From Thermodesulfovibrio sp. 3907-1M (GTDB lineage: Bacteria > Nitrospirota > Thermodesulfovibrionia > Thermodesulfovibrionales > Thermodesulfovibrionaceae): a DNA stretch of 64,000 nt. Numbering within the stretch: the stretch's first letter is position 1; the number at the start of each line of letters is the position of its first letter. The position numbers were made by a program, and so were the translations under genes. The notes beneath the pieces were generated by a model. The model saw only the letters and a list, made by a program, of their open reading frames with translations. It made no database searches and was not told the origin of the DNA. This document shows positions 8,733 to 52,455 of this stretch, piece after piece. The stretch covers positions 1,840,486 through 1,904,485 of the forward strand of contig NZ_CP144373.1 in NCBI RefSeq assembly GCF_040450955.1. The letters run 5' to 3'.

Positions 8733-9824
8733 TTATCTGGTAATCTCCTTAAGAAATTGCTTAATTGCGTCAAAAACAGTCTCAACATTAACATTTTCAG
8801 CTTTCCTATCACTTCCCTGTAAAATAGTATGCTTTACTCCCCACGGTCTCCATCTATGTGGGTCTGTAGAGCCCCATATTGTTACAATGGGTTTTTCAAG
8901 TGCTGCTGCTATGTGCATTGTGCCACCATCAAGACAGACAACCAGATTAGCAAGACTCAGGGCAGCAATAAGCTCTCTTAAATGATTTGTTTTGTATGGA
9001 ATAATTTGAGGCACTGCTTTAATAATTAACTCTGCCTTTTCATCGTCTCCGGGATGATAAGGATTTTTTTCACTTCCTGGGGACCACAAAAGCATTATTT
9101 CTGCATTTTTTTGTTTCAAAATAAGTTCTGCAAGGCTTATAAATTTTTCAGCAGACCATCTATTTTCAGGCTTTCTACTGCTTATATGGAAGGCGATTAG
9201 AAGCTCGCCATTCTGAAATGGTATACCTGAAGTAGCTGATAATAGTCTGTCATCCCGAGCGTTAGCGAGGGATCTTCTCCTTTGTAAAAATTCCCGCACT
9301 CTTTGAATCTCAGTGGTTGAAGGGAATACCCTCAATTTATCAGGTAAACCATCAATTCCCAGAGGTGATAGTAGATTAAAAACTCTTTCAACTTCATGCA
9401 TTGGCTTTTCAGCTTCTTTTAAAGACATATTGTAAAACAGGGATTTATTAACATTTTTAGGTGAATATCCGATTCTTATTCTTGCTTGAGTCATATATGT
9501 ATATCTTGCAAGTCTTGGCGAGTATGAACCACAGGCAATTGCCATATCATATTTTTCTTTGCGAATTTTTATGAGAATCTTTGAATTATTCAGCCAGACA
9601 GAAAGCTTATTTTTTTCAGGCACATGCTTGGCTTTTTCATAAATGTAAACTTCATCAATATCTGGATTATTCATTACAACCTCTGCATTATAGCTGTTTA
9701 CAAGAATACCAATTTTTGCATTAGGACAATGCTTTCTTACTGCATGAATTGCAGGCGTTGTGCATATAAGATCACCAATATTATCCCGGCGAATGAAAAG
9801 GATTTTGTTTAGCATTTTAGACAT
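8733..9824 (-). CDS. GT9 heptosyltransferase-type enzyme
   Basis: Member of the ADP-heptose:LPS heptosyltransferase family (WaaC/WaaF/WaaQ fold), 363 residues. N-terminal motif ILFIRRDNIGDLICTTPAI; C-terminal donor site AFHISSRKPENRW and CLDGGTMHIAAALEKP. About 16 residues in the linker between the two domains (about 181-196, QRRRSLANARDDRLLS) are encoded by a palindromic repeat element and match nothing in the third GT9 paralogue. The start may be the ATG at 9824 or the in-frame ATG at 9815; neither has a clear ribosome binding site, and both overlap the upstream GT4 gene. Which heptose is added is not known. Confidence 0.9.
   Translation of the reverse strand: MSKMLNKILFIRRDNIGDLICTTPAIHAVRKHCPNAKIGILVNSYNAEVVMNNPDIDEVYIYEKAKHVPEKNKLSVWLNNSKILIKIRKEKYDMAIACGSYSPRLARYTYMTQARIRIGYSPKNVNKSLFYNMSLKEAEKPMHEVERVFNLLSPLGIDGLPDKLRVFPSTTEIQRVREFLQRRRSLANARDDRLLSATSGIPFQNGELLIAFHISSRKPENRWSAEKFISLAELILKQKNAEIMLLWSPGSEKNPYHPGDDEKAELIIKAVPQIIPYKTNHLRELIAALSLANLVVCLDGGTMHIAAALEKPIVTIWGSTDPHRWRPWGVKHTILQGSDRKAENVNVETVFDAIKQFLKEITR
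9249..9280 (+). repeat. Palindromic repeat copy inside a GT9 gene
   Basis: GTCATCCCGAG, a GC-rich centre (CGTTAGCG) and AGGGATCTTCTCC. This is a slightly diverged copy of the dispersed element seen at 16.2, 23.1, 29.6 and 51.4 kb. It lies in frame within the GT9 coding sequence, on the opposite strand to the gene. Confidence 0.75.
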
Positions 9825-10966
9825 TTAAGACATATTTCAAGAATTTTCTCAGCCCTCTTTTCGTATGTATAATGTTTAGCAATTTTTTTTGCATTGTAAC
9901 TTAATTTTTCTGCTAAACTTTTTGAATCTGAAATTTTTTTTATTGCATCCGCCAGAGATTTAGGATTCCCAGCTTCAAAAAATATAGTAGTTTCATTATT
10001 TTGTAGTATTTCTTTAAAAACTGGTAAATCAGAAGCTACAATCGGGATTCCTGCAGCCATATACTCAAATAATTTTAAAGGCGATGAAAACTCTGACGGT
10101 CCTTCTGCTAAGTTAGGTAACACAGCAATTTTAGCTTTAGAAAGATATTCAGGTATAAGAGAGTGAGGGATATCTCCTGTAAAAATTACTCTATTATCTA
10201 TGTTTTCTTCCATAGCAAGCTCTTTTAATTCATTTAATCTATCCCCTCCTCCAATTATCACTAATTTTTCATCTTGAAGATATTTCATGGCAGAAATTAA
10301 AACATCTACTCCTTTCCATTTATATAAACTTCCTGTATAACATATATAGGAATTTTCATGATTTCTCTCTGTTTCAAACCATTCATTTCTAACAGCATCG
10401 TGTACCACTGAAATTTTTTTCTCATCAATTTTAAAATTATCTATCAGGAATTCTTTAAGTTTGAAAGATATGCATATTAGAGCATCCATGTTTTTGTAAA
10501 CCTCTATTTCAGTTTGCTTTAATTTGTTCTGTTTTTTTTTGTTTAAAGTATTTAAATGAAATATTTCATGAACCTCAAAAATCATAGGGATTTTGAAAAA
10601 TCTTTTAAAATTCAGCAAAAAACTGGCAAGTTTAACATGTCTTAAAAATACTAAGGATTTTTGCTTTTTTGCTCTATTTGATAAAAATTTCAAAAAAAAT
10701 AAATAAAATAATCCATTCCACGAAATCTTTAAATATTTCGCCTTTTCTCTTCTTAATACAGGTAGATTTATAATTTTAAAAGTCTCACAGGACTCTATAT
10801 CATAAAATTGATATAAATCTCTCATGGAATATCCACTCTTAATTCCCGTTACCAGAGTAATATTTAGTCCTTTTTTGGCAAGAGCATAACAGGTATTGAT
10901 TATCTGAATAAATCTTGCTCTACTGTCTGGAAATACTTCTGGAACAGGATATATAACTTCAATCAT
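9809..10966 (-). CDS. GT4-family glycosyltransferase
   Basis: GT-B glycosyltransferase of the polysaccharide cluster, 385 residues. It begins MIEVIYPVPEVFPDSRARFIQ. The donor domain (about 195-365) has ICYTGSLYKWKGVDVLI, IIGGGD and the GT4 signature PSEFSSPLKLFEYMAAGIPIVASD. No membrane helix or signal peptide. The ATG overlaps the upstream polymerase/ligase gene by 4 bp. The C-terminus has three Cys in eight residues (CLKCLKC), which is unusual but of unknown meaning. Substrates cannot be assigned. Confidence 0.88.
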   Translation of the reverse strand: MIEVIYPVPEVFPDSRARFIQIINTCYALAKKGLNITLVTGIKSGYSMRDLYQFYDIESCETFKIINLPVLRREKAKYLKISWNGLFYLFFLKFLSNRAKKQKSLVFLRHVKLASFLLNFKRFFKIPMIFEVHEIFHLNTLNKKKQNKLKQTEIEVYKNMDALICISFKLKEFLIDNFKIDEKKISVVHDAVRNEWFETERNHENSYICYTGSLYKWKGVDVLISAMKYLQDEKLVIIGGGDRLNELKELAMEENIDNRVIFTGDIPHSLIPEYLSKAKIAVLPNLAEGPSEFSSPLKLFEYMAAGIPIVASDLPVFKEILQNNETTIFFEAGNPKSLADAIKKISDSKSLAEKLSYNAKKIAKHYTYEKRAEKILEICLKCLKC

Positions 10967-12189
10967 TTTTTTATTTTCTCCACAAAATTAACATAAGCTC
11001 CAATTAATGGAATTATCAATATCAATTGAATAAATCTTGTATCTTCTACTATTCCGTGAACAAGCAATATTGTTAAAACAGATATTAATGACAGACTAAA
11101 AAGTTTCATTGATAAAATTTGTTCAGTTGTCAAATTTGCTATGAAATATTTAAAAGAAAAATATATCAACAATAAAAATATGCTAATACCGAGTATGCCT
11201 TGCTTATATAGAATAGAAAGATAGACATTATGAGGTGAATAAAGTTCTTCAGGTTCTTTACCGAACTTATTCAGGTACCATTTTTTGAAATCTTCAAGAT
11301 ATGTCATTCGTCCAAGTCCATTGCCAAATATCTTATTAATAAGAGAAAGATTATAATATGAATCTATTGCTGCTGGCCAGACCATTTCTTTTCTTAAAGA
11401 AGTATATCCTTCCAAAAGCTCTTTAAAATTTCCCTTTACATAAGGAGGCGATATTACTGTAAGTAAAATTACTATTACTACAATGATTCCACTTATTATA
11501 GGTAAAATTTTAATAAATTTCTTTTTAGTAATCAGCAGGTAACCAATTAACCAAATAAATAAGCTTAAGCTAACACTTATCCAACCACCTCTACTTCCAG
11601 TAAGAATAATTGCTATTATTCCTAATAATAAAATAACGAAGCCTATAACTTTCAAAAGCTTTGTTTTTTGAGTAGTAATGAAAAACGGAATAAAAGGTAA
11701 GAAAAATTCTAATGGAACTATATATTTTCTCACAAATTTTCCATAATTATAGGAGTTTGGTAGAACTTTGGTGTAAAAGTCGTAAAATGTAAAAATTGTG
11801 AATAGAACACTAAGAAAAACGAATAATCTACTCAATTTTTCAAGTTTTTGTTGAGTTTGGAAAACATAAGAAATACTTAGGTATACTAAAAAAAGTTTGA
11901 GATATGTTCTTTGAAACCATTTTAAAGAGTATAATGGGTCAGGGGCAAAAATTGAGGAAATGATTCCAGACAAACATAAAAAAATCGTTAAAATAGAAAT
12001 AATATTTTTAAAATTTAATGGATTTTCTTTTAGAAAAATAGCTCTTACAAAAATAAGAAGTGGAGGAATATAAATTCCGATTGCCCGTAGTGTTTCTCCC
12101 TTGTCCATAAATAAAAAAAGTATTAAAAGATATGTTCCATATTCAGTTAATAAAAGTAATTTATTTGATAATTGTAAGTTTTTATTCAT
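10963..12189 (-). CDS. O-antigen polymerase/ligase membrane protein
   Basis: Polytopic inner-membrane protein, 408 residues, with about ten to eleven hydrophobic segments. It contains the Wzy_C/WaaL family core: GSRGGW before a run of membrane helices, and a large periplasmic loop ending in SPHNVYLSILYKQG with a conserved His. Such proteins either polymerise O-units (Wzy) or join O-antigen to lipid A-core (WaaL), and the two cannot be told apart from this sequence. It is coupled by 4-bp overlaps to GT4 genes on both sides. The first ATG is kept; there is no strong ribosome binding site. Confidence 0.85.
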   Translation of the reverse strand: MNKNLQLSNKLLLLTEYGTYLLILFLFMDKGETLRAIGIYIPPLLIFVRAIFLKENPLNFKNIISILTIFLCLSGIISSIFAPDPLYSLKWFQRTYLKLFLVYLSISYVFQTQQKLEKLSRLFVFLSVLFTIFTFYDFYTKVLPNSYNYGKFVRKYIVPLEFFLPFIPFFITTQKTKLLKVIGFVILLLGIIAIILTGSRGGWISVSLSLFIWLIGYLLITKKKFIKILPIISGIIVVIVILLTVISPPYVKGNFKELLEGYTSLRKEMVWPAAIDSYYNLSLINKIFGNGLGRMTYLEDFKKWYLNKFGKEPEELYSPHNVYLSILYKQGILGISIFLLLIYFSFKYFIANLTTEQILSMKLFSLSLISVLTILLVHGIVEDTRFIQLILIIPLIGAYVNFVEKIKK

Positions 12190-13337
12190 TTTTCTAATAT
12201 TTCGTTATAAAATATTTCCAATTCTTCAGAAATATAAAGCCAATCAAATTTTTCCGCTGTTTTTCTCGCTTCTTTACTAATTTTTTGATGTAGTTGTTTA
12301 TCTATCATTAAGGTTTTAACAAGTTCGGCTCCATTATTGAGTAAGTTATCCTCTTTTAAAAAAAATCCATTTATCCCATGATAAATATATTCTTTTAATC
12401 CTCCTCGGGCTCTTGTTATAACAGGAAGTCCTGTTGCCATGGCTTCTAAAGCCACCATACCGAATGGTTCATTAAATTCAGATGGTATAAGTACTACATC
12501 GCCTATTAAATAAATTTGGTGAATTTTAGATGGTGGGAAAACATCTGTAAAAGTTATTTTATTGTTTAGCTTTCTGGAAAGTTCAAATATTTTTTTGGCG
12601 TAATCAAATCTATCTCCTCTTTTTGCAATTTCTCCAACTACAACAAATTTAATATTTTCAAATTCCTTTAAATTGATCGCTACTTTAACGAAATGTTCTA
12701 CTCCTTTTTCTGGTGAGATTCTGCCAACAAATAAAACTACAAATTCATTTTCATTAATTTTAAATCTTCTTCTGATAGTTTTTCTTAACTCAGCAAGCTC
12801 CCAATAAGGAGAGAATTTTTGAGAATCAACTCCATTGTATATACATTTAAACTGTTTAGCTTTAATTTTTTCATTGTTTTTATAAATATTGACAATATAA
12901 TTACTGCATCCGATGAAAGCATCTACTTCTAAGGGAGTACTTATGGAAATTTCATTATGAAAATGTAAAATCTTTTTTATTTTCGTGTCTAACTCTTTAA
13001 TGATAGGAAAAAACCACTTTACAGTATTATGTACATGAATTATATCTGGCTTTACTTCGTTTATAATTTTTAGTATTCTTTTTGGATATGATAAAGGATC
13101 AAGTTTTGTCATTTTTTGAAAAAATCTTTTATAAAGTTTACCAAAATTAATTCTGTAAAAATAAATATTATCTTTATATTGTCTTTCAGCATAAAATGGA
13201 TTACCTATGGAAACAATATGAGGTTCAAAATTGATCAATCTTTTTGCTGTTTCAAACATCCATGTTTCCACAGCTGCTCCTTTAAGAGGAGGATTAGGAT
13301 GAACAGGTCCGGCAAAAATTAAAACTTTTTTAGGCAT
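12186..13337 (-). CDS. GT4-family glycosyltransferase
   Basis: GT-B glycosyltransferase, 383 residues. The N-terminus reads VLIFAGPVHPNPPLKGAAVE, with the small-residue loop of GT4 enzymes. The donor half has VVLFVGRISPEKGVEHFV and the E-x7-E motif NEPFGMVALEAMATGLPVI followed by RGGLKEYI. Soluble. It overlaps its upstream neighbour by 8 bp and the polymerase/ligase gene by 4 bp. Sugar specificity is unknown. Confidence 0.9.
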   Translation of the reverse strand: MPKKVLIFAGPVHPNPPLKGAAVETWMFETAKRLINFEPHIVSIGNPFYAERQYKDNIYFYRINFGKLYKRFFQKMTKLDPLSYPKRILKIINEVKPDIIHVHNTVKWFFPIIKELDTKIKKILHFHNEISISTPLEVDAFIGCSNYIVNIYKNNEKIKAKQFKCIYNGVDSQKFSPYWELAELRKTIRRRFKINENEFVVLFVGRISPEKGVEHFVKVAINLKEFENIKFVVVGEIAKRGDRFDYAKKIFELSRKLNNKITFTDVFPPSKIHQIYLIGDVVLIPSEFNEPFGMVALEAMATGLPVITRARGGLKEYIYHGINGFFLKEDNLLNNGAELVKTLMIDKQLHQKISKEARKTAEKFDWLYISEELEIFYNEILEK

Positions 13338-14427
13338 AAAGATGTCTCCAAAATTTTTTTATTACTATATCCCAGCTAAAATTCTGTACTACTCTCTGTC
13401 TACCTTTAGAACCTAATTCAATCCTGAGATTTTCATTGTTAATCAAAAGTTTTATTTTATCTAAAATCGCATTTTTATCACAAGGTGGCACTAAAAAACC
13501 AGTATCTCCTATTACTTCGGGAATTCCTCCTACAGTTGTTGATATTACAGGAATCCCACATGCCATAGCCTCTGCAATAGATATCCCAAATGTTTCATCT
13601 GCTACGCTCGGAAATATTGCAATATCTGCTATTGAATAATATCTTGGGAGTTCAAAATTGCTTTTATTCCCTAAAAAAATAACTTTATTATTAATTTTGA
13701 GACTATTTACCAATCTTTCAAGATTTTTTCTATATTCTCCTTCTCCAATTATTAAATATTTTACATTATATCCTTCTTTAATGGCTTTATTTACAGCTTT
13801 AATGCTGTATTGAATACCTTTCCAACCTACAAGTCTGCAAACACTTATTATAACTTTTTCATTTTTTATTCCAAGAGAATTTTTTATTTCTAAATCGGGC
13901 TGAAGAGGTTTAAAAACTTGTGTATCAATTCCATTTGGGAGCACTACAGGCTTAATATTACAATATTTTTCTATTTGAGAAGCATTAAAATTGCTACAGG
14001 AGAAAAAATAATCTAATTTTTTAACAAAATAACCATATCCTGGGTAAAACTCTGTTCCTCCAGAGAAAAATATTATTTTGCACTTATTCATCTTTTTAAT
14101 AAATAAAGCGACAGGTAAATCATAGGGCTTAAAAATACAGAAAAAATCATATCTATTCTTTTTTAAAGTCGGCAATGCGGCATAAGCAAAAGACAGTCTT
14201 TCCATGAATTTTCTAAATCTTGAACCAAAATCAGGGAATTTTTTTCTTGGTATAAAAGGAAAAGTTAAAAAATTTAGATTATCAGGCAGTTCAATATTTA
14301 TTGGGAAACCACCACAAACAGTCACATCCCATCCTGAAATTGCAAGATTTTTTGCTAAGCCTAAACAAAAGCTTTCTATTCCTCCATGTTTTATGGTAGT
14401 TGTGACATTATAAAAAAGTATTTTCAT
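13330..14427 (-). CDS. GT4-family glycosyltransferase
   Basis: GT-B glycosyltransferase, 365 residues from the ATG at 14427. That start is preferred because it forms an ATGA overlap with the upstream GT9 stop and begins MKILFYNVTTTIKHGGIE, the usual GT4 opening. A 19-residue upstream extension of the frame lies inside the GT9 gene and looks like read-through. The donor domain has ISVCRLVGWKGIQYSI and the E-x7-E motif DETFGISIAEAMACGIPVIS, then VGGIPEVIG. Soluble; substrates unknown. Confidence 0.9.
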   Translation of the reverse strand: MKILFYNVTTTIKHGGIESFCLGLAKNLAISGWDVTVCGGFPINIELPDNLNFLTFPFIPRKKFPDFGSRFRKFMERLSFAYAALPTLKKNRYDFFCIFKPYDLPVALFIKKMNKCKIIFFSGGTEFYPGYGYFVKKLDYFFSCSNFNASQIEKYCNIKPVVLPNGIDTQVFKPLQPDLEIKNSLGIKNEKVIISVCRLVGWKGIQYSIKAVNKAIKEGYNVKYLIIGEGEYRKNLERLVNSLKINNKVIFLGNKSNFELPRYYSIADIAIFPSVADETFGISIAEAMACGIPVISTTVGGIPEVIGDTGFLVPPCDKNAILDKIKLLINNENLRIELGSKGRQRVVQNFSWDIVIKKFWRHLYA

Positions 14428-15536
14428 GATAACATCTCTTGAGCAGATGTTAAAACTTCTTCTACTTTTATAAGATTCATACAATATGGATTTTTACACT
14501 TTTTTGTAATGCAGGGATTACATGGTCTATGTTTTTCTATTACTTTATGAAGATGGAAGTCCTGTAAGGGACCAACTCCCCAAGCATAGGTTGGACAAAA
14601 TAAAGATAATGTTTTGGTCTTAAGAGCAATAGCTATATGCATTGTGCCTGTATCATTTGTTATCAATAAATGAGTTTTTTCTATTAAAGCTCTCAATTCT
14701 CTCAATGATAATTTGCCTGCTAAGGAAATAGCATTTTCTCCTATTTTTTTTGCAATACTTTCACAGAGTTTTTTTTCTTCTTTTGAGCCTAAGATCAAAA
14801 TTACAACATTTTTATTGTTATCAATAAGTTTTTTACCTAATTGTATGAAATTTTCTTTTGGCCACATTTTAAATTTGGTAGCTGCCGCTACCTGGAAACA
14901 CACTATTTTTCTGCCATTTCTTATTTTTATGTTTTTTAGTAATTTTTTAATTTTCTCTCTGTCTTCTTCATCTACTAAAAGAACCATTTCTTTGTTATTA
15001 ATCTGACAATCAATAAAAGATGCTGCCTTAAGCCTTACATCTATTCCATGATGTTTCCATGGGTCATCAAATCCGTTTGTTTTATTACTGAGTAAAAAGC
15101 CAAAATCTTTGGGGATTGGCACTTTTACAATAAATCTTGCACCGCCGAGGTATGCCATTGGAGTTGCCTGTGGTTCATTTCCGTGAAGGATTAACGCTAC
15201 ATCAAACTTGTGTTTACGGAACTCCCTGATTGTTTTAAAAAATTTTTTCCATCCACCGTAATAAGGAATAATTCCATCAATATGGGGATTGTTTTCAAAA
15301 AGCTCCATATTTTTCACATTAAAATGAGCGATTATTTTTGCATCAGGATATCTTTCTCTTACTGCTCTTATTGCAGGCGTTGCCATGAGAGTATCTCCAA
15401 TTGCAGTTGAAGACACAACAAGTATATTTTTAACCTCATCGGGATTAAAATATTTTAAATCTGTTTGTCTTTTATCAAATTTTTTAATTATTTTTAATGC
15501 TATATAAAGCAAATTTTCCCTTATCTTCAACCTCAT
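14424..15536 (-). CDS. GT9 heptosyltransferase-type enzyme
   Basis: ADP-heptose:LPS heptosyltransferase family, 370 residues. Motifs: ILVVSSTAIGDTLMATPAIRAV, then CFQVAAATKFKMWP, and LLITNDTGTMHIAIALKTKT. The C-terminus has a Cys cluster (PCNPCITKKCKNPYC), common in this family. Unlike the two paralogues at 8.7 and 15.6 kb, it has no repeat-derived insert between the two GT-B domains. It begins about 40 residues later than the ATG because of a short basic N-terminal helix. A TGATATAAT box 12 nt before the start suggests an internal promoter. Confidence 0.9.
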   Translation of the reverse strand: MRLKIRENLLYIALKIIKKFDKRQTDLKYFNPDEVKNILVVSSTAIGDTLMATPAIRAVRERYPDAKIIAHFNVKNMELFENNPHIDGIIPYYGGWKKFFKTIREFRKHKFDVALILHGNEPQATPMAYLGGARFIVKVPIPKDFGFLLSNKTNGFDDPWKHHGIDVRLKAASFIDCQINNKEMVLLVDEEDREKIKKLLKNIKIRNGRKIVCFQVAAATKFKMWPKENFIQLGKKLIDNNKNVVILILGSKEEKKLCESIAKKIGENAISLAGKLSLRELRALIEKTHLLITNDTGTMHIAIALKTKTLSLFCPTYAWGVGPLQDFHLHKVIEKHRPCNPCITKKCKNPYCMNLIKVEEVLTSAQEMLS

Positions 15537-15548
15537 CTATATCCTTGA

Positions 15549-15557
15549 ATTATATCA
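15549..15557 (-). promoter_or_regulatory. Internal promoter (extended -10) in the LPS cluster
   Basis: TGATATAAT on the minus strand, in the 32-bp gap between two GT9 genes and 12 nt before the ATG at 15536. AAGGA lies between the box and the ATG and could act as a weak ribosome binding site. Confidence 0.4.
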
Positions 15558-15568
15558 CATCTCTGTTG

Positions 15569-16750
15569 TTATTGAATATTTCCACTCAATACTGTTTTTA
15601 AAATCTCAATCACTTCATCAGGTTTTATGTCAAAGAGGCATTTGCTTATTTTTGAGCCTCCGCAGCCATCCTGTCCGCAGGGAATGCAACTCCAGTTTCT
15701 CTGGATTACTATGTTTTTGCCGAATCTTTGAATGCCATTTTTTTGTGAATAGGGATTTTCAACTGCTTCATTATCCCATGGACCCCAATGGAATGCTCCA
15801 CTTGGACCAAAAAGTGCTACAACAGGTTTCCCTAAGGCTGCTGCTATGTGCATTGGTGCTGTGTCTATGCCAAAGTATATGTCACAGAGGGCTGCTACTG
15901 CTATGAGTTGTCTAAGTGTTAGTTTTCCTGCAAGATTGATTATAGAAGAACCATCCTGAGAGTAGCCGAAAGGCTCATAATGGCAGGAGGGAATATATGA
16001 AAGAATTGACTCTATTTTTTTAAGTTCCCTTTCATCTGCCGATGAAGTAAGAACAACTCTGTGTCCATTGGAAATCAGCCATTTTATAACTTCTGCCATG
16101 TATTCGTCCTTCCAGCATTTAAAAAGCCATCGGGATGTAGGATGAATATGGATAATTTTTTTATTAGAGGAGGGGATTCCTCGCATTTGCTCGGAATGAC
16201 ATAAATGAGGCTCGGAATGACGAGGAAAAATCAGGTTTTTTGCCAAAGTTTTTTCATCTTCTGTAACATTGAGAAATAATTCAGGCTTTCCGATTTTTAA
16301 TCCTATTTTTTCAAGAACTTCAAGATTTTGAAGCAATGTATGTTTATGCCCGTTTATTTCAAAAATTCTGGTATAAAGATGTTTTTTCCCAAAAAATCCT
16401 TTTGATTTTATGCCAATTCTTGTTTTAGCTCCTGAAAAATAGGATATTACCGCTGCTCTGTCTCCTCCTGTAAGGTCTATGGTGGTATCAAACCCAATCT
16501 TTTTTATATTCCTTAGAAATCGAATCTCATCAATATATCTTTTAAAAGCAGGTAATTTTTTTATTTCCCTGTCATAGGTGATAATCTGGTCAATGTAAGG
16601 ATTTTTCTCAAGAACAGCCTCTGTGCCTTTGTTTACCAGTGCAGCAATAAAGGAATTCGGAAGATTTTCTTTTAAAGTCTTGAAAACAGGTGTTGTAAGT
16701 AAAACATCTCCTATATGACGAAGCTTTATGACAAGAAATTTTTTATACAC
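15569..16750 (-). CDS. GT9 heptosyltransferase-type enzyme
   Basis: ADP-heptose:LPS heptosyltransferase family, 393 residues, the longest of the three here. It opens FLVIKLRHIGDVLLTTPVF; the donor site has IHIHPTSRWLFKCW and FGIDTAPMHIAAALGKPVV; it ends with a Cys-rich segment (CIPCGQDGCGGSKISKC). The extra length comes from two repeat-derived inserts. One is at about residues 176-197 (RHSEPHLCHSEQMRGIPSS) in the interdomain linker. The other is PSCHYEPFGYSQDGSS in the C-terminal domain, just before INLAGKLTLRQL. Both are in frame and free of stops. It overlaps the WaaG-like gene by 25 bp. Confidence 0.9.
   Translation of the reverse strand: MYKKFLVIKLRHIGDVLLTTPVFKTLKENLPNSFIAALVNKGTEAVLEKNPYIDQIITYDREIKKLPAFKRYIDEIRFLRNIKKIGFDTTIDLTGGDRAAVISYFSGAKTRIGIKSKGFFGKKHLYTRIFEINGHKHTLLQNLEVLEKIGLKIGKPELFLNVTEDEKTLAKNLIFPRHSEPHLCHSEQMRGIPSSNKKIIHIHPTSRWLFKCWKDEYMAEVIKWLISNGHRVVLTSSADERELKKIESILSYIPSCHYEPFGYSQDGSSIINLAGKLTLRQLIAVAALCDIYFGIDTAPMHIAAALGKPVVALFGPSGAFHWGPWDNEAVENPYSQKNGIQRFGKNIVIQRNWSCIPCGQDGCGGSKISKCLFDIKPDEVIEILKTVLSGNIQ
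15951..15983. repeat. Second-type palindromic repeat inside a GT9 gene
   Basis: An imperfect inverted repeat: CCAT...ATGG at the ends and AGCC-GAAA-GGCT in the middle. The CCATCCTGAG...GTAGCC text resembles another common class of bacterial dispersed repeat. It is translated in frame as the HYEPFGYSQDG part of the GT9 protein. Only this one copy is recognised in the window. Confidence 0.4.
16167..16221 (-). repeat. Palindromic repeat inside a GT9 gene
   Basis: One full copy (16167-16200), with arms GGATTCCTCG and CGGAATGAC around a GCATTTGC centre, plus an extra right arm GCTCGGAATGAC (to 16221). It lies in frame in the GT9 coding sequence and is read as the HSE-containing insert in the interdomain linker. 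Confidence 0.8.
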
Positions 16751-29533: not shown

Positions 29534-29571
29534 TAACAGTTCAATTCTCTCTGAAATTGAAGATAGAAACT

Positions 29572-29731
29572 GTCATTCCGAGGGGCTCAATGCCATTTTC
29601 ATTGTCATTCCGAGGGTGGCATCCCACCCGAGGAATCTCTGAAATAGTGAGAAAGGAGGAGATTCCTCGCTTCGCTCGGAATGACAAAGTATGGGCAGGC
29701 TCGGAATGACAGAGAAGGAGCTCGGAATGAC
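29572..29731. repeat. Cluster of palindromic repeats, intergenic
   Basis: The 345-bp space between cheW and pgpA is filled by copies of the dispersed element. There is a partial copy at 29572-29594 (centre GGGCTCAATGCC). A full copy at 29604-29639 has centre GGGTGG-CATC-CCACCC. A full inverted copy at 29655-29685 is an exact reverse complement of the copy at 51471-51501. Lone right arms CTCGGAATGAC lie at 29698-29710 and 29718-29731. A short open frame through the region is only the translation of these repeats. Confidence 0.85.
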
Positions 29732-29799
29732 AAATCTATAAACCCCTTTGAAACATTAGTTTTCTATTTTTGTCAGCAAATTTAGATTCTTCTCAATTG

Positions 29800-51301: not shown

Positions 51302-52455
51302 AGAAAGGAAAATTGAATATTTACATAGAGATTCCTCGGGGCATTGAGCCCCTCGGAATGACAAAAAATAGGTCATTCCGAGCCTTTTCCTTGTCATCGT
51401 ATATTAGATCATTCCGAGCTTTTTTATTGTCATTCCGAGCTTTTTTATTGTCATTCCGAGCTTTTTTATTGTCATTCCGAGCGAAGCGAGGAATCTCCTC
51501 CTTCTTAGTAATTTTCATCTCATTGTTGTTCCTCCTTACAGGCTGTGGAAGAAAGATGGATCCTACCCTGGAAGATTATCTTCAACCAGAACCTGCTCAG
51601 AACATAACATTATCAGCTTCTTATGACAAAATTGTGATTTCATGGAGCTACTCTGAAAAAAAGAAAGCAAAAATTGGAAGTTTTCTTCTGGAAAGAGAAA
51701 ATTCAGGCCAGGTAAAATCTTTAGGATATTTTGATAATCAGACTAACTCATATGAAGATAAAGAGTTTGTACTTGGTGAAACCTATAAATATCGTCTGAT
51801 TGCAATAAGTGGAAAGGGTGTTTACAGTAAACCGGTTGAGGCAAGTATAACCCCAAAAAAACTGCCTGAGGTTGAAAATATCCAGTATAAGATTACAGAT
51901 GAAGGAGTGATGCTTTCATGGCATAGTTCAGACTCTGTTATGTATAACATTTATACGATCAATCATAAAGGAGAAAGGTCAAAAAAAGGCTCAACGGATA
52001 AAGATTTTTTCCTGGATAAAATAAGTTTTTTCACTTTAAGTTCTTTTATTTCTTTTGAGGATGTTACTGCTTCTGGATATTTAACCTATCTTATTTCTCC
52101 ATATATTTCTGAAGGCGCAGCGTACATTGAAGGACCTGGCAGACAGATAAAGATTCCCATTGAAGATTTTATTCCATCAAAACCCAAAGAAGTATTCTGG
52201 ACAATCAATGAAAACGGTGTTTATATCTCCTGGAAAGAAGTTCCTGAAAAATGGATTAAGGGATACAAAATTTACAGAAAAACAGCCAGTGATTCAGAGT
52301 TTATCCTGATTGGTGAAACTATGATTCCATTGTTTTTTGATGTGCAGTATAATATAAATAATTTGAAAGCACCAGTTTTTTATAGAATTTCTTCAGCAGC
52401 TCCTTTAAAGGAAAGCGAACCTATTGAAATAAAAGTGGAGGTTCAGAATGGATAG
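51298..52455 (+). CDS. FN3-domain lipoprotein with repeat-encoded N-terminus
   Basis: 385 residues from the ATG at 51298. The first 66 or so are encoded by copies of the palindromic repeat: IEIPRGIEPLGMTKN, then SFRAFLL three times (38-58), then SFRAKRGISS. A lipoprotein signal follows (FLVIFISLLFLLTGC, Cys83). The mature protein has about three fibronectin-III-like domains (SYDKIVISWSYSEKKKAKIG, DEGVMLSWHSSDS, NENGVYISWKEVPEKWIKGY). A 60-residue n-region is not normal for a lipoprotein signal. The true start may be the TTG at 51469, which would leave a 25-residue signal (SFRAKRG then the hydrophobic core). It is coupled to argH (4 bp) and hypE (8 bp). Confidence 0.75.
   Translation: MKKGKLNIYIEIPRGIEPLGMTKNRSFRAFSLSSYIRSFRAFLLSFRAFLLSFRAFLLSFRAKRGISSFLVIFISLLFLLTGCGRKMDPTLEDYLQPEPAQNITLSASYDKIVISWSYSEKKKAKIGSFLLERENSGQVKSLGYFDNQTNSYEDKEFVLGETYKYRLIAISGKGVYSKPVEASITPKKLPEVENIQYKITDEGVMLSWHSSDSVMYNIYTINHKGERSKKGSTDKDFFLDKISFFTLSSFISFEDVTASGYLTYLISPYISEGAAYIEGPGRQIKIPIEDFIPSKPKEVFWTINENGVYISWKEVPEKWIKGYKIYRKTASDSEFILIGETMIPLFFDVQYNINNLKAPVFYRISSAAPLKESEPIEIKVEVQNG
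51330..51501 (+). repeat. Array of palindromic repeats inside a lipoprotein gene
   Basis: From left: a full copy at 51330-51362 with centre GGGC-ATTGA-GCCC; a left arm at 51372-51383; a decayed arm near 51393. Three exact tandem 21-bp units follow at 51409-51429, 51430-51450 and 51451-51471 (TCATTCCGAGC then TTTTTTATTG). A full copy ends the array at 51471-51501. The tandem period is 7 codons and is in phase with the lipoprotein reading frame. Confidence 0.9.

Follow-up and report, generated by a model that had tools for sequence, protein, structure and literature searches.

The window analysed here, a stretch of 64,000 nucleotides from Thermodesulfovibrio sp. 3907-1M, corresponds to bases 1840486-1904485 of a genome that consists of a single contig of 1,935,540 bp. 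It contains three genes for family 9 glycosyltransferases (GT9), two of which carry, in frame and in the linker between their two domains, a copy of a short hairpin element resembling repetitive extragenic palindromes (REPs). We refer to the host genes as gene 1 and gene 2. Genomes are given G-numbers, G000 being the source genome of the window, and sequence stretches L-numbers; bit scores are from R1, a covariance model of the element. The features at the locus are as follows.

8733..9824, minus strand: GT9 glycosyltransferase gene 1 (protein P0001, 363 residues; PF01075, E = 2.2e-30), host of an antisense repeat copy
9246..9280, plus strand: full copy of the short GTTA-loop subtype in gene 1, residues ~181-193 (R1, 47.1 bits)
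14424..15536, minus strand: third GT9 paralogue (P0003), without a repeat copy and serving as internal negative
15569..16750, minus strand: GT9 glycosyltransferase gene 2 (P0002, 393 residues; PF01075, E = 2.1e-35), with repeat copies at two sites
15951..15985, minus strand: decayed long-loop copy at the second site of gene 2, peptide CHYEPFGYSQDG, residues ~256-267
16169..16203, minus strand: full sense copy in gene 2, residues ~183-194 (R1, 47.7 bits)
16210..16222, minus strand: extra half element with a CGTCATTCCGAGC head, immediately upstream of the full gene 2 copy

PF01075 scores above its cut-off in all three GT9 open reading frames (ORFs) in a profile search (E from 2e-30 to 2e-35). 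The two repeat-bearing proteins, which are ~28% identical to each other, were the ones modelled with AlphaFold, from alignments of 60 and 20 rows. The gene 1 model has a predicted local distance difference test score (pLDDT) of 90.9, and its top Protein Data Bank matches in Foldseek are the GT9 structure 3tov and WaaC; for gene 2 the pLDDT is 87.4 and the top matches are 3tov and WaaF (1psw). Membership of GT9 rests on the family-9 profile together with the GT-B fold, the fold being that of the two modelled proteins.

In both models the first site lies between the last helix of domain one and the first strand of domain two. In gene 1 these are helix 170-190 and strand 208-213, with residues 196-205 at pLDDT < 50, and in gene 2 helix 164-174 and strand 199-203, with residues 181-191 mostly at pLDDT < 50. 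By coordinates, the element spans residues 181-193 of the gene 1 protein and 177-194 of the gene 2 protein. The original prediction, made from the bare sequence, had placed one copy in each inter-domain linker, just before a donor-domain strand and in opposite orientations, and had seen none in the third paralogue. All of this is borne out: the linkers precede strands 208-213 and 199-203, the inserts fall in low-pLDDT linker segments of GT-B models that match known structures, the copy is antisense in gene 1 and sense in gene 2, and R1 finds no match in the gene at 14424-15536. The inventory of gene 2 was right as to the linker copy but incomplete, having overlooked the decayed copy at 15951-15985 in a donor-domain loop (helix 240-250 to strand 270-272). 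This copy matches intact long-loop copies in L186, L191 and L211 at 27 of 35 bases. We considered whether the second-site sequence is unrelated to the element, exact TCGGCTACNCTCAGGA being matched once each in G000, G010 and G020, and rejected this; the sequence is likely to derive from the element, because long-loop units with a one-base variant of it occur in the same three stretches.

The element is a REP-like hairpin with a TGTC head, an ATTCC/GGAAT stem, an invariant GA opposite GA, an exchangeable inner stem and a CTC tail. Stretches around pattern matches yielded 119 units, in a search that left the four bases of the head free; 114 of these units begin with TGTC, and the tail is CTCC in 63, CTCT in 44 and CCCC in eight. 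The stem opens with A-T and T-A pairs in all model sequences and comprises 5 plus at least 2 bp, interrupted by the constant GA/GA mismatch, whereas the inner stems and loops reach ~16 nt, giving units of ~28-45 bp. About half of the units have short loops (GAAG, GTTA and similar) and the remainder long inner stems, the subtypes being GAAG, GTGGCATTCCACC, CTGCCAGAGGCAGG, AGCGTTAGCGA, GGCTCAATGCCC and a long CCTTCG...CTCAGG loop. Pairing holds in 99% of the cells of a 14-sequence alignment, compared with 90.5% in shuffles and at most 55% in slid versions, and three pairs in this alignment are altered on both sides. Compared with shuffled sequences, the subtypes with long inner stems give much better folds (z = -3.5 and -4.6). 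The gene 1 copy has ATCCC/GGGAT in its stem, a compensated change also present in six other units of the genome stretches read. Neighbouring units within 120 bp stand with their heads outside in 40 cases, heads inside in 18 and in tandem in eight, the commonest, head-outside pairs usually having a gap of 19-20 bp.

The 14 sequences chosen to build R1 include both window copies, the gene 1 copy of G002 and the second-site copy of G015; the R1 scores of copies used in this way are high by construction, and the independent evidence for dispersal comes from exact-pattern counts. TGTCATTCYGAG heads have 205 exact matches in the 1.94-Mb genome and none in the reversed control, and TCATTCCGAGC has 118, with none for the reversed pattern; copies of the element number ~100-200 across the genome. 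A census based on stretches around pattern matches gives 83 repeat islands which, with about a dozen more, make ~95. A spacing-pattern search was too narrow for most subtypes, and a literature search with the repeat sequence strings returned nothing relevant.

The ORFs of both host genes are open through the inserts. It had been remarked in the original prediction that the two copies are read in different frames and yet are both open; the openness stands, but it is not remarkable, since shuffled units of equal length are open in ~60% of cases in any one frame and real units in 36-95%. Selection for a coding potential of the repeat was rejected for the same reason, its frames being about as open as those of shuffled units.

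Confident in-frame genic copies are found in five genes, the two GT9 genes and three others:

L196:2510-2567 (G000:C1, ~1171.7 kb): MinD-like ATPase, with a copy between two 4Fe-4S motifs that leaves the frame open
L211:3280-3420 (G000:C1, ~968.5 kb): ABC-ABC fusion, with an in-frame long-loop copy precisely between its two ATPase domains
L210:2457-2493 (G000:C1, ~910.5 kb): methylase-HemD fusion, with a decayed antisense copy inside HemD, before 'ILYPRSD'

In all five genes the repeat falls between domains or between subdomains. Copies within genes are rare compared with those outside genes, as they occur in five genes among ~95 islands despite an ORF coverage of ~97% in the window (by a generous ORF count). 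That two of the five hosts are GT9 genes is a post hoc observation with no value as a test. G010, the closest relative as judged by gene 2, matches TGTCATTCYGAG once, against 205 times in G000; the element has either expanded strongly in one of the two lineages or been lost from the other. The single match is presumably the gene 2 copy of G010, since its gene 2 orthologue carries one.

Comparison with orthologues shows occupied and empty sites. The gene 1 orthologues from other families (L034, L035, L037-L041) and from G009 have a short linker and no insert. The gene 2 linker has 110 residues here, against 90-96 in G004, G008, G009 and G013; in other families it mostly has 96-98. The first-site copy of gene 2 is common to G000 and its sister genome (L062, 28.4 bits), and in G002 and G015 the site holds decayed sequence related to it. 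At the second site G015 (L071) has an intact short-loop copy (48.9 bits, a copy used in R1) and G002 (L064) a third subtype. The original prediction had held that shared residues in distant genera would speak against insertion; the sites in other families are empty of the element. It had also left two histories side by side, and here separate insertion fares well and ancestral insertion followed by inversion does not. A single insertion in an ancestral GT9 gene, with later duplication and inversion of the repeat in one paralogue, would explain why both proteins have their copy in the homologous linker. However, the two paralogue groups are already distinct in other families of this order, where the sites are free of the element, and paralogues of ~28% identity carry near-perfect repeats (47 bits each), so that we give this history next to no credence. 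The same empty sites support the two GT9 insertions in this genome as separate events.

Selection on the genes was estimated from nonsynonymous (dN) and synonymous (dS) divergence. Between G000 and G010 the core of gene 2 has dN/dS = 0.061/0.306 = 0.20, compared with 0.258/0.344 = 0.75 for its inserts, the latter over only 49 codons; the core of gene 1 has a dN of 0.156 with a dS near 1.1. Both cores are under purifying selection, which supports function, and the GT9 proteins are probably active, whereas the few codons of the gene 2 inserts suggest almost neutral drift. We found no point in favour of the genes being pseudogenes or of the insert being removed from the RNA, and the intact ORFs, the confident GT-B models, the purifying selection and the likewise open frames of the other genic copies make either scarcely credible.

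In GT-B enzymes the linker borders the inter-domain cleft. Its position there, and the retention of the gene 2 insert in both G000 and G010, might suggest that the inserted peptides have been recruited, for example as an acceptor-binding or partner-binding linker. The relaxed dN/dS of the insert relative to the core (~0.75 against 0.20, from few codons), the low pLDDT at the inserts and the different peptide sequences in G000, G002 and G015 argue otherwise, and we think recruitment quite unlikely. The peptides are probably tolerated passengers, since purifying selection continues to act on the enzymes as the insert drifts.

We consider it very likely that a REP-like family has multiplied in this genome, leaving in-frame survivors in linkers and loops, and that the two GT9 copies are separate insertions that probably encode passenger peptides. 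Short, non-autonomous hairpin elements have multiplied in this Thermodesulfovibrio genome, presumably placed by transposition or copying, and would land widely, nearly all surviving copies lying outside genes. Those surviving within genes would be copies that kept the frame and lie in an exposed linker or loop. Two of them are the separate insertions, in opposite orientation, at the homologous inter-domain linker of the GT9 paralogues; a third, decayed, is the copy in the donor-domain loop of gene 2. Mobilisation by a Y1 transposase of the REP-associated (RAYT) kind was rejected, as PF01797 (Y1 transposase) has no match in the genome; five of 14 control genomes respond to this profile.

Several observations weigh against this account. 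The gene 1 site is empty in G010, the weakly supported sister of G000 in the gene 1 tree (61/73; G002 and G004 group at 96/99), and its linker is shorter than in the outgroups, so that within the genus the pattern would fit either two gene 1 insertions or a single one with subsequent loss and a change of subtype. G002 has a near-perfect copy (46.7 bits) of another subtype at the same gene 1 codon and in the same orientation as G000, and G004 a decayed copy of the G002 subtype. The nearest orthologues, at 76-88% identity, are too distant to reveal target-site duplications or exact ends. Finally, the count of genic copies is a lower bound, because decayed copies are under-sampled: the whole-genome R1 search, in which only 150 of 874 candidates were scored, failed to recover either of the window copies.

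The recurrence of different loop subtypes at one codon of gene 1 in G000 and G002, in the same orientation and frame, could also mean that the element or a mobilising enzyme recognises the DNA of the site, as could the different repeat subtypes at the second site of gene 2 in three lineages of the genus. Such a target preference accords poorly with the opposite orientations of the element in the two paralogues, and a sequence-specific mechanism leaves unexplained the unrelated repeats, including heptamer arrays, in the same loops of other families. We judge it unlikely; survival of tolerated insertions in loops remains our preferred explanation, and the shared site would then be due to selection.

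The unrelated repeats emerge from the gene 2 orthologues, a set of 89 distinct rows in which the window protein and the copy of it from its genome are both counted. Six or more extra residues are present in 11 of the 89 rows at site one, in 20 at site two and in 39 at a third loop, after GPWD, compared with four or two rows at internal sites elsewhere. Palindrome-type inserts (PPFDKGGLGG/SLSKGG/PPLVRG) occur in L143, L082 and L102 and heptamer arrays in L079, L083, L143 and L169; the repeats held by these loops in other families are CCCCTT/AAGGGG palindromes and heptamer arrays, and some inserts read as GDSPRFTG-type sequence. The palindrome-type repeat is dispersed in G054 (35 matches, none in the control). 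Dispersal of the heptamers is likely, the control for the TCAC heptamer being weak in that reversed arrays match too. Dispersal of the GDSPRFTG type was not seen, GATTTACGGGNGAAGC, from second-site inserts in other families, being confined to GT9 genes in three genomes. Related inserts of this type lie at two GT9 loops, the third (L080, L081, L104) and the second (L072, L080, L081), and a 16-mer from one occurs nowhere else in three of those genomes.

A tentative idea, which we hold at somewhat less than an even chance, is that unrelated short repeats use particular GT9 loops as general landing sites across Thermodesulfovibrionales and neighbouring lineages, with subtypes swapping at one codon within a genus. 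If it is true, repeats of several families (TGTC REPs, CCCCTT/AAGGGG palindromes and heptamer arrays) have entered the same inter-domain linker and donor-domain loop time and again and keep altering linker length, a broader pattern worth a systematic test.

Elsewhere in the window the element forms two clusters, neither with an assigned strand:

29571..29732: intergenic cluster of intact copies
51324..51501: repeat-dense cluster that combines intact copies with half elements arrayed in tandem

The half-element array (TCATTCCGAGCTTTTTTATTG, period 21) lies at 51371-51482 and adjoins full copies. Big clusters of dozens of units, mostly head-outside dimers, are found at G000:C1 461-465 kb, 474 kb and 1824-1828 kb (L180, L181, L204).

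By its sequence the element resembles the CGTC/TGTC REPs, a superfamily that includes RPE-4 and RPE-6 of R. conorii, two of the Rickettsia palindromic elements (RPEs), as well as Neisseria dRS3 (PMC3733652). The likeness to Rickettsia drawn in the original prediction was apt in this sense. The unpaired head, here in its TGTC variant, the A-T start of the stem, the small palindrome, the predominance of head-outside dimers and the mostly intergenic location, with some intragenic copies, are all shared. The superfamily has no known dedicated transposase (PMC3733652), and none of the Y1 type was found in this genome. The tail differs, being CTC(C/T) instead of CCA, which fits most but not all CGTC REPs (PMC3733652). 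So does the stem: CGTC REPs are defined by 8-9 bp starting with A-T pairs and a loop of 4-5 nt in few types (PMC3733652), whereas here a constant GA/GA mismatch splits the stem, and the inner stems and loops, of up to ~16 nt, are exchangeable. The phylum of the Thermodesulfovibrio group also lies outside the five listed (PMC3733652). The TGTC head and the want of a PF01797 match in the genome separate the element from the RAYT-mobilised GTAG REPs. Exchangeable inner stems with no visible transposase bear on how CGTC-type REPs spread.

RPE-1 and other RPEs are likewise dispersed palindromes read in frame in conserved proteins and tolerated there, having been found within 19 reading frames in the first report; they are 105-146 bp long (PMC2229807), compared with ~28-45 bp here, where genic copies are few and mainly at domain boundaries. 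A thermophilic, non-parasitic lineage thereby joins the bacteria with small palindromes inside conserved proteins. With their empty orthologues in relatives, the two GT9 enzymes lend themselves to measuring what a repeat-encoded linker costs, and the case as a whole provides a natural test of what determines where repeat insertions survive.

In-frame repeat insertion is already known from Rickettsia and elsewhere, and as a kind of phenomenon it is ordinary. The enterobacterial RU units are not known to be related in sequence to the element. They too are small mobile sequences read within annotated proteins, but are far longer, at 103-168 bp (PMC2759123). The closest precedent for a recurrently used, tolerant site is recB of X. 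campestris and X. oryzae, in which different REPs lie at about the same place in the orthologues (PMC3733652). Here, in contrast, two paralogues share the site and orthologues from other families hold unrelated types of repeat; such repeat-collecting GT9 loops in other bacteria are what is added to the known cases of in-frame insertion.

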